Origin: Actinoallomurus sp.
GTDB lineage: Bacteria; Actinomycetota; Actinomycetes; Streptosporangiales; Streptosporangiaceae
Reading direction: 5' to 3'
NCBI GenBank assembly: GCA_025964685.1
Contig: JAOPYG010000293.1
Span: 1-64,000 of the forward strand
DNA length: 64,000 nucleotides
This document shows, in pieces, positions 41,628-46,453 of the stretch. Every line of letters begins with the position of its first letter. Positions within the stretch are counted from its first letter, which is position 1. Below the pieces are notes generated by a model. That model had not been told where the DNA came from. It worked only from the letters and a program-made list of their open reading frames with translations, and did no database searches. The translations under genes were made by a program, and so were the position numbers.

Positions 41628-41822
41628 GTGCGTCTCACCGTTTTCTGGGATCGGATGAATCAGCAGTTCGGCGAGGGCTACGCCGAGAGCGTGGCCAAGG
41701 ATTACGTCCTGGCAGAGCTCGGCGGCCGCACCGTCGATCAGGCACTGGCCGAGGGCGTCGCCGCCAAGGAGGTGTGGCGGGCCGTCTGCGCCACCTTCGA
41801 CGTGCCCCAGAAACTACGGTGA
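41628..41822 (+). CDS. DUF3046 family protein
   Basis: 64 residues. RLTVFWDRMNQQFGEGYAES and KDYVLAELGGRTVDQALAEG followed by VWRAVCATFDVP match DUF3046, a small actinobacterial protein of unknown function usually found next to recA. GTG start. Its stop overlaps the next GTG (GTGA), so it is coupled to the rhodanese gene. Confidence 0.9.
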   Translation: MRLTVFWDRMNQQFGEGYAESVAKDYVLAELGGRTVDQALAEGVAAKEVWRAVCATFDVPQKLR

Positions 41823-42232
41823 GCATCGACCGGCTGCTCGCCGAGGCGAGAGCGGGGCTCAGGCGGCTCAAGCCGCACGACGTCGCCGAGGCCGTACGCG
41901 CCGGGGGGCTCCTCGTGGACACGCGCCCCGAATACCAGCGGCGCGCCGACGGCGACATCCCCGGCGCCGTCGTCGTGGAGCGCAACCAACTCGAATGGCG
42001 GCTCGATCCGCACAGCGAATCTCGCATCCCCGAGGCCGCGCACGACCGTGTCCACTGGATCGTGATCTGTGACGAGGGTTACTCCTCGTCGCTGGCCGCC
42101 GTGTCGCTGCGTGCGATGGGGCTGGTCAACGCCACGGACGTCGTGGGCGGCTTCCAGGAATGGCGGGCGGCCGGCCTCCCGGTGACCCGCGGTCTCGTAC
42201 GGCCTCGGCTCGCCTCCTACGACCTCAGATGA
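41819..42232 (+). CDS. Rhodanese-like sulfurtransferase
   Basis: About 137 residues, one rhodanese domain. LLVDTRPEYQRRADGDIPGA and the active-site loop VICDEGYSSSLAA with Cys84 are present, then TDVVGGFQEWRAAGLP at the C-terminus. It would transfer sulfane sulfur, but the acceptor is unknown. GTG start in GTGA overlap with DUF3046. Its stop overlaps the convergent DUF350 gene by about 8 bp. Confidence 0.88.
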   Translation: MSIDRLLAEARAGLRRLKPHDVAEAVRAGGLLVDTRPEYQRRADGDIPGAVVVERNQLEWRLDPHSESRIPEAAHDRVHWIVICDEGYSSSLAAVSLRAMGLVNATDVVGGFQEWRAAGLPVTRGLVRPRLASYDLR

Positions 42233-42674
42233 CGGCGATCGCGGTGATCAGGCCGACCGTGGCCTGCATCGCGCCGAGGAGGATCGCCGAGGGTTCGAGC
42301 TTCTCCTTGTTCATCAGCCCGGTCACGTCGATGCCCAGGAGAAGACGCACGACCAGCGTGGCGATCTGCTGGGCGACGATGCCCACCAGGCCCCACACCA
42401 GCGTCGCGATCAGCCCTTCGAGCAGCTTTCCGCCGGAGGCGAAGATCGACGCGGCCACGACGAGACCGACCCCCGCCGTGCCGCAGACGGCGAGCAGCGT
42501 CGCGTTGGCGTTGCGGTTCATCCGGATGATCGTGGTCAGCCGTCCGGGCGTGGTCATGTCGACCGCGAAGAACCCGATGATCAGCAGCACCAGCCCGAGC
42601 GCCGTGTAGGCGGCGATCGCGCCGGCGCCCTTGCCCAGGGCCGTGCCGAAGCCGTCCGAGAACGCAAGATACAT
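42225..42674 (-). CDS. DUF350 membrane protein (YjfL-like)
   Basis: 149 residues with four predicted helices in two DUF350 repeats (ALGLVLLIIGFFAVDMTTPG; GLIATLVWGLVGIVAQQIAT). E. coli YjfL is the reference member, and like it this gene sits in an operon with a GSP-synthase-like enzyme and a lipoprotein. Function unknown, probably in the cytoplasmic membrane. Last gene of the leftward operon, 21 bp after the GSP-like gene. Confidence 0.88.
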   Translation of the reverse strand: MYLAFSDGFGTALGKGAGAIAAYTALGLVLLIIGFFAVDMTTPGRLTTIIRMNRNANATLLAVCGTAGVGLVVAASIFASGGKLLEGLIATLVWGLVGIVAQQIATLVVRLLLGIDVTGLMNKEKLEPSAILLGAMQATVGLITAIAVI

Positions 42675-42695
42675 GTGGATCTCCCTGTCGGGGGC

Positions 42696-43835
42696 TCAGC
42701 CGTCGATGCGGTGCGGTACGAAGGAGGAGGTGTCGTCGGTGATGAGGCCGGAGGTCTCGCGGATGCCCAGGCCCGCCGACTCGTCGCCCACGACCCAGGC
42801 GCCGAGGACGGGATGCTCGCCGTCGAACTCCGGCAGCGGGCACAGCTCCTGGAAGACGAAGCCCTCGGCGCCGTACTCCCCGGGGGTGGTCTGTACGCCC
42901 TCGGGCGTCACGATGCTCATGCTCGCGCCCTCCCGGCCGAGCAGCGGCTTGCGTACGTAGGAGGTCAGCGTGCTCGGGGTGCCGAGAAAGGTCGGCAGCA
43001 GGTTGGGGTGGCCCGGGTACAGCTCCCACAGCACCACGAGAAGCGCCTTGTTCGACAGGAGCATCTTCCAGATCGGCTCGATCCACGAGGCGCGCGTGAT
43101 GTGCCGGCCGAACGGCTCGGCGACGATCCACTCCCACGGGTAGAGCTTGCAGAGCGTGCGGATCTCCGCCTCGTCGAGGTCGACGAACCGCTCGTTCTGC
43201 GCGTGCCAGCCGACGTCCTCCATCGCGATCGCCGTGGCCGGGATGCCGGCCTGCTCGGCCGTCTCCTGCAGGTAGGCGACGGTCATCAGCTCTTCGCCGG
43301 TGCCGTCCTCGGTCGTCCAGGCGAAGTGCACGGGACCGGCCGGGGAGATCTGCTTCCAGCGGTCGACGAGCCGTTCGTGGACCGAATTCCACTGGTCGCC
43401 CTCGGGGTGGACGTCCTGCAGCCAGTACCACTGCACGATCGAGCTCTCCACCAGCGCGGTGGGGGTGTCGGCGTTGTACTCCAGCAGCTTGGCCGGGCCC
43501 TCGCCGTCGTACCAGAGGTCGAACCGCCCGTAGAGGTGCGGATCGCGTCGCCGCCACGACGCCTCGATCAGCGGGCGAACCCAGGGCGGGATGCCGAACA
43601 CGTCGTACCGGCCGGTCGTCACGACGTGCTCGACCGCCGCCAGGCACATCCCGTGGAGCTCTTCGACGACCGTCTCCAGGGCGAGGACCTCGTCCATGCC
43701 GAAGACGTAGTGCACGGACTCGTCCCAGTACGGGCGGGTCAGGTGCTCAGGGTGGGAGGTGCGGTGGTACGCGAGGCCCTGCGACTCGATGATCTGAGCC
43801 CAGTCGGCCCGCGGGTCCGAGAACTCGCGCCGCAC
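42696..43835 (-). CDS. Glutathionylspermidine synthase-like ligase (YjfC/YgiC)
   Basis: 379 residues, ATP-grasp fold of the GSP_synth family. Hallmarks are GIPPWVRPLIEASW, LYGRFDLWYDGEGPAKLLEY, NADTPTALVESSIVQWYWLQ, YPWEWIVAEPFGRHI and LLPTFLG. Only the C-terminal synthetase half is present; the amidase half of E. coli Gss is absent. Such stand-alone proteins (YgiC, YjfC) are thought to ligate an amine or peptide to a partner protein. GTG start three bases after the lipoprotein stop. No spermidine genes lie nearby. Confidence 0.88.
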   Translation of the reverse strand: MRREFSDPRADWAQIIESQGLAYHRTSHPEHLTRPYWDESVHYVFGMDEVLALETVVEELHGMCLAAVEHVVTTGRYDVFGIPPWVRPLIEASWRRRDPHLYGRFDLWYDGEGPAKLLEYNADTPTALVESSIVQWYWLQDVHPEGDQWNSVHERLVDRWKQISPAGPVHFAWTTEDGTGEELMTVAYLQETAEQAGIPATAIAMEDVGWHAQNERFVDLDEAEIRTLCKLYPWEWIVAEPFGRHITRASWIEPIWKMLLSNKALLVVLWELYPGHPNLLPTFLGTPSTLTSYVRKPLLGREGASMSIVTPEGVQTTPGEYGAEGFVFQELCPLPEFDGEHPVLGAWVVGDESAGLGIRETSGLITDDTSSFVPHRIDG

Positions 43836-43838
43836 GGC

Positions 43839-44183
43839 TCAGCCGCCCCGTGAACCGGAGTGACCGCCGAAGCCGCCGCGGGAGATCACCCGGCCGCCGC
43901 GAGAGGTGATCTTGCTGCCGCGCGGGCGGATGGTGCTGCCGCGGGAGATGTAACCGCCGTGGTAGCGGCCGCCGTAGTACCAGTAGTAGCGGCCGTACGA
44001 GCCGCCGTTGTCGCAGTTGCGGTCGCCCACGACGCGGTGCGAGCCGCCGCGGGAGTTCTGGCCGTCGACGCAGGACGCGCTGGTGCCGGAGGAGCACGCG
44101 GCGAGCGTCAGCGACAGCGCGCCGACCGCGCTGAGCCGTACGGCGCCGGAGCGCATCCGCCGTCGGGCGTTCTGGGGAGGCAT
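43839..44183 (-). CDS. Gly/Ser/Arg-rich lipoprotein (YgiB-like position)
   Basis: 114 residues. Signal peptide ending LAAC with Cys30 as lipid anchor. The mature part is short and rich in Gly, Ser, Arg and Tyr: GSYGRYYWYYGGRYHGGY, then repeated S-R-G-G units near the C-terminus. I do not recognise a domain, though position resembles the YgiB/YjfM lipoproteins that accompany YgiC/YjfC ligases. It is plausibly the target of the two adjacent ATP-grasp enzymes. A second ATG at residue 10 would also keep the signal peptide. Confidence 0.8.
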   Translation of the reverse strand: MPPQNARRRMRSGAVRLSAVGALSLTLAACSSGTSASCVDGQNSRGGSHRVVGDRNCDNGGSYGRYYWYYGGRYHGGYISRGSTIRPRGSKITSRGGRVISRGGFGGHSGSRGG

Positions 44184-44233
44184 GGCCGCCGTCTTCCGGT
44201 TCCGGGGGTGGTGCCCGGTAAGTGTAGAGCGGC

Positions 44234-45094
44234 CTAGCGGATAGGGAAGCTCAGGTAGAGATCGGCGGGTTCGGCGCCCGCCGGAAGATCGCTCACCTGC
44301 CCGTCGCCGACCTCGATCACCCGCCAGGCGCCGTCGGCGCGGCGTGCCAGGTCCGTCGTGATGAACCGGCAGCCCAGGGAGCGTACGCAGGGCGCGACCA
44401 GGTCCGTACGCGGGCGGGGGTGGCGGTCAGGGCTGTCCGGATGTGGCCCGACCAGCACCGGCTCGCCATCGACCCACCAGACGCGTGCCTCGCCGCCCTC
44501 GTACCTCTCGTATTCGCGGATCACGACGCCGCCGGCAAGGTCATTGCCTTGGAGTTCGACGAACCGCGAGACGACGGCGTGCAGCCGCTCGGTGTCGGTC
44601 ACGTCGGGTACGAAACACGCTTCGTCCCACTCGTGCTTGCGCGACTTCACGTAGTCCTTGACGATCGCGGGGCCCTTGGGCAGCGGGCGTACGAGCCGGG
44701 CGAGCTTGTCCTTGTCCGGCGCCGCGCCAGGGGGCATCGGCAGCCATACGCTCGCGGGGGTGACGCCGGCGAACGTGTCGTACCAGCCCGGCAGCTCGTG
44801 CGCCTTCTGGTAGCCGTCCGGCGGCACCGCCATGGTGACCTTCCTGGCGCCGAGCGCCGAGGTCAGCGCGGAGTACTGCACGGTCGTGGCCATCCAGCCG
44901 CGGTACCAGACAGTGCCCAGGTCACGGGGCACACGGTGGACGGCCATGCCGGCGTCACCGCGCTGGAGGGCGTCATGGTCCAGGAGCGCGACGGATCCGC
45001 CGAGCGCGCGCACGGCCTCGGCCTCCCGGGTGAAGTGCTCGTCGACCCTCCGGGGGTTGAGCGGGTCGGCGCACATGAGAATGGTGACCGGCAT
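44234..45094 (-). CDS. ATP-grasp domain protein
   Basis: About 286 residues. ATP-grasp-type features are GPAIVKDYVKSRKHEWDEAC in the nucleotide-binding part and the C-terminal GAWRVIEVGDGQVSDLP, where Glu and Asp bind magnesium. It likely forms an amide or ester bond using ATP on an unknown substrate. I chose ATG 45094 (MPVTILMCADPLNP); ATG 45121 adds nine residues and follows gaaggtgg-type sequence. First gene of a leftward operon, 50 bp before the lipoprotein, divergent from recA with an SOS box between. Confidence 0.8.
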   Translation of the reverse strand: MPVTILMCADPLNPRRVDEHFTREAEAVRALGGSVALLDHDALQRGDAGMAVHRVPRDLGTVWYRGWMATTVQYSALTSALGARKVTMAVPPDGYQKAHELPGWYDTFAGVTPASVWLPMPPGAAPDKDKLARLVRPLPKGPAIVKDYVKSRKHEWDEACFVPDVTDTERLHAVVSRFVELQGNDLAGGVVIREYERYEGGEARVWWVDGEPVLVGPHPDSPDRHPRPRTDLVAPCVRSLGCRFITTDLARRADGAWRVIEVGDGQVSDLPAGAEPADLYLSFPIR

Positions 45095-45159
45095 GCTGCG
45101 CTCAGCGTAGGCCACCTTCATCGGGGTTTCAGGATGGAATCGGAGTGTCTTAGCATGAT

Positions 45160-45173
45160 CGAACACATGTTCG
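45160..45173. promoter_or_regulatory. LexA (SOS) box upstream of recA
   Basis: cgaacacatgttcg fits the actinobacterial LexA consensus CGAAC-N4-GTTCG. It lies 125 bp upstream of recA and only about 65 bp upstream of the ATP-grasp gene on the other strand, so it could repress both. The -10 candidate TAGAGT at 45176-45181 follows at once, putting LexA over the recA promoter. Confidence 0.8.
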
Positions 45174-45175
45174 GC

Positions 45176-45181
45176 TAGAGT
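45176..45181 (+). promoter_or_regulatory. Candidate -10 box of recA
   Basis: TAGAGT right after the SOS box. LexA bound there would block polymerase. A 117-bp leader would precede recA. Confidence 0.5.
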
Positions 45182-45298
45182 TGACCGCACCGAGCGACGT
45201 CATCCACACCGACGGACCGGGCTCTCGAAAACTGTCAGTGGAGCCCCGTAACGTCACCCTCGACAACAACAGTCACCGATTTCACAGGGACACCTCAC

Positions 45299-46453
45299 AT
45301 GGCAGCTAACGATCGCGAGAAGGCTCTTGAGGCTGCGCTCGCCCAGATCGAGCGGCAGTTCGGCAAGGGATCCGTCATGCGGCTGGGCCAGGAGGGGCGC
45401 CCTCCGGTCGAGGTGATCCCGACCGGTTCGATCGCCCTCGATGTCGCCCTGGGTATCGGCGGTCTGCCGCGCGGCCGCGTCGTCGAGATCTATGGCCCGG
45501 AGGCCTCCGGTAAGACGTCCCTCGCGCTCCACGCGGTCGCGAGCGCGCAGAAGAACGGTGGCATCGCGGCGTTCGTCGACGCCGAGCACGCGCTCGACCC
45601 CGAATACGCGAAGAGGATCGGCGTCGACATCGACGCCCTGCTCGTCTCCCAGCCCGACACGGGGGAGCAGGCTCTCGAGATCACCGACATGCTGATCCGC
45701 TCCGGCGCGATCGACGTCGTGGTCATCGACTCCGTCGCGGCCCTCGTGCCGCGCGCGGAGATCGAGGGCGAGATGGGCGACAGCCACGTCGGCCTGCAGG
45801 CGCGCCTCATGTCGCAGGCCCTCCGCAAGCTCACCGGCGCCATCAACCAGACCAAGACCACCGCGATCTTCATCAACCAGCTGCGGGAAAAGGTCGGCGT
45901 CATGTTCGGCTCGCCCGAGACGACCACCGGCGGCAAGGCGCTGAAGTTCTACGCGTCGGTCCGCCTCGACGTGCGCCGCATCGAGACGATGAAGGACGGC
46001 ACGGAGGCGGTCGGTAACCGCACCCGCGTCAAGGTCGTGAAGAACAAGATGGCGCCGCCGTTCAAGGTCGCCGACTTCGACATCCTGTACGGCGTGGGCA
46101 TCAGCCGCGAGGGTGGCCTCATCGACATGGGTGTGGAGCAGGGCTTCGTCCGTAAGTCGGGCGCCTGGTACACCTACGAGAACGACCAGCTCGGGCAGGG
46201 CAAGGAGAACGCCCGCACCTTCCTCAAGGAAAACCCGGACATGGCCAACGAGCTCGAGAAGAAGATCAAGGAAAAGCTCGGGGTGGGGCCGAAGCTCGAC
46301 GCCGACGCCGGCTCATCCGCGGCGCCTCTCGCCGAGGCACCGGCCGATGCGGCGGGTGTGGGCGTGGGCGCGGCCGCGGGTGCGGGCGCGGCCGGCAAGT
46401 CTGCGCCGGCCAAGCGAGGCGCCAAGGCCACCCCGAAGCCGGGCGACGTGTGA
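45299..46453 (+). CDS. recA: Recombinase A
   Basis: 384 residues. ATP-dependent strand exchange and LexA co-protease. Walker [14 protein letters not shown] is near residue 64, the DNA loop and [19 protein letters not shown] are conserved. The C-terminal tail is extended by about 35 residues rich in Ala, Gly and Lys ([19 protein letters not shown]), common in actinomycetes. A weak aggga ribosome site precedes the ATG. SOS-controlled from the box at 45160. Confidence 0.98.

Follow-up and report, generated by a model that had tools for sequence, protein, structure and literature searches.

A conserved C-terminal tail as a candidate substrate of YgiC/YjfC-type ligases, traced from a lipoprotein-ligase unit beside recA in Actinoallomurus sp.

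Glutathionylspermidine (GSP) synthetase activates the Gly carboxylate of glutathione as an acyl phosphate, and both GspSA and trypanothione synthetase use free glutathione as a substrate. Escherichia coli also has YgiC and YjfC, which RefSeq names 'peptide--spermidine ligase' and which are each encoded beside a lipoprotein, in the pairs YgiB-YgiC and YjfM-YjfC (the latter within yjfIJKLMC, with DUF350 in yjfLMC). Their activity reportedly goes back to Pederick (Biochemistry, 2023), where the physiological substrate is said to have been left open, and a 2009 study of amidoligases by Iyer and colleagues may discuss such operons. Two associations have been published in PMC11237479, that of a GSP synthetase (GSPS)-like ligase with DUF350 and a DUF1190 lipoprotein, and an operon of a spermidine-synthase-like protein, DUF350, DUF4178 and a lipoprotein. 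In Haemophilus, the lipoprotein NTHI1101 lies in an operon (NTHI1100-NTHI1103) with a putative GSP synthase, according to an excerpt of PMC13055389. Here we describe a locus of Actinoallomurus sp. in which a lipoprotein-like protein, a GSPS-like ligase and a DUF350 protein are encoded in a row near recA. The window, meaning the whole stretch of DNA analyzed, was 64,000 nt long (assembly GCA_025964685.1, contig JAOPYG010000293.1, positions 1-64,000, forward strand).

The window shares its GSPS-like ligase, DUF350 protein and lipoprotein with the PspA-associated polyamine operons of PMC11237479, whose operon section, as excerpted, mentions neither C-terminal tails nor the lipoprotein as a substrate. 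The Haemophilus operon is likened here to the window by gene context alone, and the excerpt of that study (PMC13055389) mentions neither a tail nor a modification. With the E. coli pairs, the window shares the family and length of the ligase and the adjacent lipoprotein, and with yjfLMC also DUF350. The body of the lipoprotein differs from YgiB and YjfM, and PspA, DUF2170 and DUF2491 were not found among the six window proteins scanned. Leftward from recA, the order is R2K_3 ATP-grasp gene, lipoprotein-like gene, GSP_synth ligase gene and DUF350 gene, with gaps of 50, 3 and 21 bp. An earlier reading of this DNA from its letters (the sequence-only reading) had given the same four leftward open reading frames (ORFs) and gaps, and our ORF reading and family matches agreed. 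We propose, with moderate confidence, that the lipoprotein and the ligase, usually together with DUF350, form an envelope-modification cassette in which the ligase would join an amine to the C-terminal carboxylate of the lipoprotein. The features concerned are the following.

43839..44183, minus strand: lipoprotein partner, 114 aa, with lipobox LAAC, three Cys, WYYGG and C-terminal RGGFGGHSGSRGG
43842..43880, minus strand: lipoprotein C-terminal tail RGGFGGHSGSRGG, conserved among relatives, the proposed recognition/attachment site of the ligase
42696..43835, minus strand: putative YgiC/YjfC-type peptide-amine ligase, 379 aa (GSP_synth PF03738, 501 bits)
42225..42674, minus strand: DUF350 (YjfL-like) membrane protein (PF03994, 71 bits)

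The ligase belongs to the same ATP-grasp family as GspSA and trypanothione synthetase, of which it represents the synthetase part only; its GSP_synth domain is full length and the amidase domain is absent. Its best solved relatives were YgiC (7uk8, 7uka) and YjfC (7uk6, 7uk7), matched over the full length at E about 1e-83, and it was 41 and 42% identical to E. coli YgiC and YjfC, respectively. In an alignment of six sequences, the positions of GspSA R316, D318, E330, N332 and R598 were invariant and those of E391/E392 were acidic; all of these are catalytic positions in GspSA. Judged by its sequence, the window ligase is of the YgiC/YjfC type, a relative of spermidine-attaching ligases. The comparison with yjfLMC and ygiBC drawn by the sequence-only reading was therefore the right one, given this identity and the likeness of the partner tails described below.

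The ligase search covered 121 genomes of the order, of which 62 were positive with 65 loci including the window, and the stretches around the other 64 loci were fetched. A second set consisted of 80 named actinobacterial loci, the best 80 of 586 relatives, partly from the same genomes as the first. A lipoprotein of the same family lay directly before the ligase in all 64 relatives' loci when ORFs were read (61/64 by tblastn), and a DUF350 match stood beside the ligase in 48 of these 64 and in 60 of the 80 named loci. Three genomes carried, besides the usual pair, a second and more divergent lipoprotein-ligase pair (L091, L092 and L094, with 61-64% ligase identity). A profile built from 12 lipoproteins, with at most 35 candidates scored per genome, matched strongly in every one of the 62 ligase-positive genomes and in none of the other 59, where it gave only two weak matches.

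The window lipoprotein has a canonical lipobox (LAAC) and a mostly low-complexity sequence, and matched nothing in Pfam or NCBIfam at E up to 1. Twelve aligned members shared three invariant Cys residues and a YGG motif besides the C-terminal tail, which was constrained to RGG[F/L/M]G followed by a short Gly/Ser end; what the sequence-only reading called 'repeated SRGG' is better understood as a single RGGFG tail, conserved at the C-terminus. Among the 65 partners of the order, a set chosen partly by the motif and not by the last residue, the last residue was always S (43) or G (22), the penultimate residue was G in 64, and [RS]GG[FMALV]G stood 7 residues from the end in 46 and 7-12 in 64, with VGGFG at L092. 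For the 80 named loci the upstream ORF was chosen by third-position G+C alone; 79 of these proteins ended in S or G (T at L181), 79 had a penultimate G and 79 had the motif (KGGFG at L151). The two sets together contained 145 proteins, whose last 60 residues made up 140 distinct sequences. Of these 140, 139 ended in G or S, 69 had the motif 7 residues from the end and 118 had it at 7-10 residues. The bodies of the partners differed greatly; two Micromonosporaceae proteins have a short body followed by [R/S]GGFGTHLASCGG. Four extra lipoprotein copies kept the tail, three of them away from a ligase (L236, L237 and L238, the last with RSGFG) and one in tandem (L239). Two tail-bearing lipoprotein genes preceded a single ligase at L133 and L239.

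Similar endings were found outside this actinobacterial set. Twenty plasmid records were picked for taxonomic spread from 60 of the 161 matching ones before their tails were inspected; L227 was left out, as no such partner lay beside its ligase, and the remaining 19 records with YgiB and YjfM gave 21 partners. Two Gly/Ser residues ended 19 of the 21, compared with 3 of 98 control coding sequences (CDS), although Fisher's p of 6e-17 is only indicative because the records are related. By the last residue alone, the counts were 20/21 and 18/98. The control CDS came from the same stretches and were copied by hand, with the complete MG1655 genes yqiD, insC5 and insD5 not among the 98. Among these partners were some whose ligases share just 23-27% identity with the window ligase across 68-78% of its length, from Bacillota (Geobacillus and a B. 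subtilis plasmid) and Cyanobacteriota (Leptolyngbya and Nostoc), and in all, similar partner endings occurred in four phyla. No Cys occurred within the first 50 residues of the Leptolyngbya, Nostoc and Pseudarthrobacter partners. The Pseudarthrobacter partner (L214, 1998-2495) has an RGGFG tail and is annotated as a tRNA-dihydrouridine synthase, a label that looks wrong.

The E. coli tails resemble that of the window, YgiB with ...TRGGFGES...SMGG and YjfM with ...SRGGYGRSSSARGHWGG. Assignment of the window lipoprotein to DUF1190 (PF06693) by Pfam was rejected, since the model gave no match at E up to 10 and matched only one of the 12 aligned members (E 0.21). Like DUF1190 proteins, the window protein nevertheless carries an RGG[F/Y]G tail with a final Gly. 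In YjfM the Pfam model extends to residue 211 of 212, and it covers the tail region of both YjfM and YgiB, so the tail already belongs to the DUF1190 family; the present comparison extends it to partners whose bodies are unrelated.

Our observations cover the families, the conserved active-site positions, the pairing, the co-occurrence and the constrained C-terminus; we infer that the tail is the substrate, and likewise when the ligase acts, which amine it uses and what DUF350 does. A cytosolic ligase would recognize the RGG[F/L/M]G tail of a nascent or not fully exported lipoprotein and would use ATP to turn the C-terminal Gly/Ser carboxylate into an acyl phosphate. An amine, most likely a polyamine or a related di-amine, would then be added through an amide bond, and the capped, positively charged protein would be anchored outside the membrane; DUF350 may assist at the membrane.

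Several observations weigh against this proposal, and modification of the lipoprotein stays a proposal here. The enzyme depends on ATP and must act before export is complete, and the conservation of the tail could have another cause, such as a disordered interaction segment. In 37 of 65 family members the presumed lipid-bearing Cys follows F or Y, so that many of the partners may not be lipoproteins but single-pass membrane proteins, and the Leptolyngbya and Nostoc partners, at about 390 aa, have no early Cys. Three weak matches from ligase-positive genomes (L242-L244) share the Cys-rich middle and end in DGRR or DGRRR, with no tail, and the partner at L181 departs from the Gly/Ser end. Outside the actinobacterial set the motif is looser: RGG[F/W/Y]G was present in 12 of the 21 partners and only G-[F/L/M/I]-G in 8, the Pseudomonas FeN3W partner had neither, the Sphingomonas partner keeps RGGFG and ends in HA, and the Asticcacaulis partner ends in CCG. 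According to an excerpt of PMC13055389, deleting the Haemophilus lipoprotein, whose operon also encodes a putative GSP synthase, had no phenotypic effect.

The supply of amine is a further point on the same side. A search for S-adenosylmethionine (AdoMet) decarboxylase (PF02675) gave matches in 9 of the 62 ligase-positive and 7 of the 59 ligase-negative genomes; the enzyme went undetected by this family in 53 of the 62, other polyamine routes not being searched, and none was found in the window's own genome, which is 88% complete and has two Spermine_synth matches (38 and 25 bits). A link to endogenous spermidine synthesis thus received no support from this distribution. As AdoMet decarboxylase is rarely detected, home-made spermidine is disfavored as the general amine, and putrescine, cadaverine, imported polyamines, spermidine by other routes or another amine remain as candidates.

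The ligase might instead make a small peptide-amine metabolite from other peptides, which the lipoprotein would bind or sense, with its tail as a binding or assembly segment. In favor of this, GSP synthetase itself acts on a free tripeptide. DUF1190 is described as a metal-chelating lipoprotein in PMC11237479. However, the distance of the motif to the C-terminus and the last two residues are constrained while the bodies differ, and we regard this reading as possible but unlikely. A ubiquitin- or Pup-like tethering, in which the tail, once activated by the ligase, would be linked to an amine group of a second protein or of the cell wall in place of a free polyamine, would make good use of a C-terminal RGG...GG/GS carboxylate next to an ATP-dependent amide ligase, and would be in keeping with the 53 ligase-positive genomes in which AdoMet decarboxylase went undetected. 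The nearest characterized relatives, YgiC and YjfC, are nevertheless annotated as spermidine-using, and the window ligase keeps the two acidic residues at the GspSA E391/E392 positions, which makes tethering rather improbable. Finally, the Gly/Ser end could reflect a constraint on the DNA, if the last lipoprotein codons also contained the ribosome-binding site for the ligase gene that follows, as the lipoprotein stop lies at most 15 bp from the start of the ligase match in 73 of the 80 named loci. This cause was rejected and can hardly be credited: the ending was kept across gaps of 62 or 83 bp (L201 and L200), where the ligase gene comes first and the partner second (Paracoccus, Sulfitobacter and Loktanella), and in the three copies away from a ligase. 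Capping of the tail by an amine is the reading that we prefer among these. The remaining features of the locus are the following.

45299..46453, plus strand: ORF that we take to be recA, used as the query in the relatives' stretches
44234..45094, minus strand: R2K_3 ATP-grasp ligase (PF14243, 157 bits)
45161..45172, no strand: SOS (LexA) box GAACACATGTTC, present in 15/15 R2K-recA intergenic regions compared
45233..45254, plus strand: promoter-like TGTCAGTG-N8-TAACGT, aligned with relatives, some of which deviate (e.g. L036, L111)
41628..41822, plus strand: DUF3046 (family match), the far flank of the insertion site, adjoining R2K in relatives lacking the trio of lipoprotein, ligase and DUF350

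The sequence-only reading had taken all four genes as one operon, perhaps damage-induced, in which both the R2K enzyme and the GSPS-like ligase would modify the lipoprotein. The tight spacing in the window, the SOS box upstream and an arrangement common to the Actinomadura group are consistent with such an operon, and operons with two linked ATP-grasp ligases have been reported (PMC4431377, in excerpt). However, R2K was detected in only 28 of the 121 genomes, 19 of the 62 ligase-positive and 9 of the 59 ligase-negative by comparison of the lists, and was adjacent to the ligase locus in 8. In seven genomes (L108-L114) it stood beside recA with no trio, between recA and DUF3046, and in 12 other genomes fetched it lay away from recA, a placement count that leaves out the 28th R2K-positive genome, which is split over contigs. 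Genome G096 has R2K at recA (L111) and its lipoprotein-ligase pair elsewhere (L093). The gene order was indeed found beyond this strain: R2K and recA stood beside the lipoprotein-ligase pair in 10 of the 80 named loci, all from Actinomadura, Spirillospora or Actinocorallia, and both were in the stretch in 7 of the 64 relatives of the order (L031-L037), no recA being found in the stretches fetched for the other 57. The eight recA-site ligases formed a single clade (support 0.995, FastTree), which fits one relocation; most simply, a single event in an ancestor of the group placed the cassette behind R2K, and the lipoprotein-ligase unit, often with DUF350, probably reached recA once. In six of the seven recA-arranged relatives, the earliest in-frame lipoprotein start lay 101-228 bp past the R2K stop (L034 was ambiguous), and this spacing makes co-transcription of R2K with the trio doubtful there. 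The four genes are therefore two things, an R2K neighbor of recA and a separate lipoprotein-ligase(-DUF350) unit, and the R2K_3 ATP-grasp protein is probably not part of the lipoprotein-ligase system. A conserved four-gene unit was rejected, as R2K and the trio occur apart; the tight spacing noted in the window stood, and a single damage-inducible operon of two modifying ligases is very unlikely. The lipoprotein as a modified target was retained, as the likely substrate of the GSPS-like ligase alone. Damage induction of the operon is likewise unsupported, for the SOS box occurs equally in seven genomes with no trio behind R2K, and the trio is not near recA in 57 of the 64 relatives' stretches.

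The R2K gene had been drawn as reaching near 45173; alignment with 14 relatives, each with a start codon at the same place (GTG in one), moved its start to the ATG at 45094. With this start, the SOS box falls outside the gene, in the 204-bp intergenic region, beginning at a distance of 67 bp from the start of R2K and 138 bp upstream of recA, and is followed by TGTCAGTG-N8-TAACGT. The 15 R2K-recA intergenic regions with GAAC-N4-GTTC comprised eight with the trio behind R2K and seven without. The TGTCAGTG-N8-TAACGT element resembles the mycobacterial LexA-independent recA promoter. A scan of 42150-45320 for promoters and terminators found none and is uninformative at such G+C. The R2K_3 ATP-grasp gene and recA recur as divergent neighbors separated by an SOS box (L108-L114, L031-L037). 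The window gene matches PF14243 (R2K_3) and has the ExGD motif, as EVGD, which is the motif stated for R2K.3 in PMC4431377. As that paper assigns the DUF4343 model to R2K.2, its numbering of the families may not be that of Pfam; its text has 0 mentions of RecA. No solved structure was matched by the R2K sequence at E up to 1. Between DUF3046 and DUF350, a rhodanese domain (PF00581, 45 bits) lies at 41876-42169, in an ORF extending to 42232 that converges on DUF350; the matching gap was at most 165 bp in 14 related recA loci. At two loci where the trio lies away from recA (L039 and L070), similar genes that we take to be regulator-like follow the trio, and in L070 a presumably fabD-like gene comes next.

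The two weak profile matches in ligase-negative genomes adjoined DUF350, in operons with DUF4178, DUF2617 and a membrane Spermine_synth protein, a kind of operon already reported in PMC11237479. Twenty further DUF350 loci were hand-picked from 111 DUF350 genomes (17 ligase-negative, 3 ligase-positive), and Spermine_synth-, DUF2617- and DUF4178-like matches were present in all 22 (L240, L241, L245-L264). Each of the 22 also encoded a protein ending in RGGGxxxGK (once RGGGxxxxGK), 24 otherwise very divergent proteins in total that were found by this motif; a count over every stop-to-stop frame of 80 or more codons in all loci fetched (12,961 frames) gave 28 with this ending, all at such operons. 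In 14 loci outside the order (L265-L278), four had RGGGxxxGK and three GGPGGTK; the other seven, from one genus, had no such tail, and six of them have a protein ending in CGGGS, CGGGGS or CGGGN. A small protein at L240 (2635-2934) had no DUF4247 match in Pfam, a name guessed only from its position in the operon.

With a spermidine-synthase-like enzyme encoded next to it, the RGGGxxxGK protein may have its terminal lysine aminopropylated by that enzyme. The terminal lysine of Braun's lipoprotein attaches to peptidoglycan, and attachment of the RGGGxxxGK lysine in the same manner is the rival reading. Tentatively, and with more doubt than conviction, both kinds of operon could be brought under a general polyamine-type C-terminal capping of envelope proteins, with a GSPS-like ligase acting on the RGG[F/L]G...G[G/S] carboxylate, a membrane spermidine-synthase-like enzyme aminopropylating the RGGGxxxGK lysine, and DUF350 common to both. 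If so, both branches would give a positively charged C-terminus outside the membrane.

Among the papers listed in a literature search of one library, none was on the RGGFG tail in lipoproteins or on the lysine tail. As far as that search shows, the constrained tail across four phyla, the one-to-one pairing with the ligase within one order, and the lysine-ended parallel are new. The comparison of tails names a candidate substrate for YgiC and YjfC, namely the C-terminus of the neighboring lipoprotein. If true, this would be a new kind of protein modification, and it would provide a context for DUF350 and several other families of unknown function.

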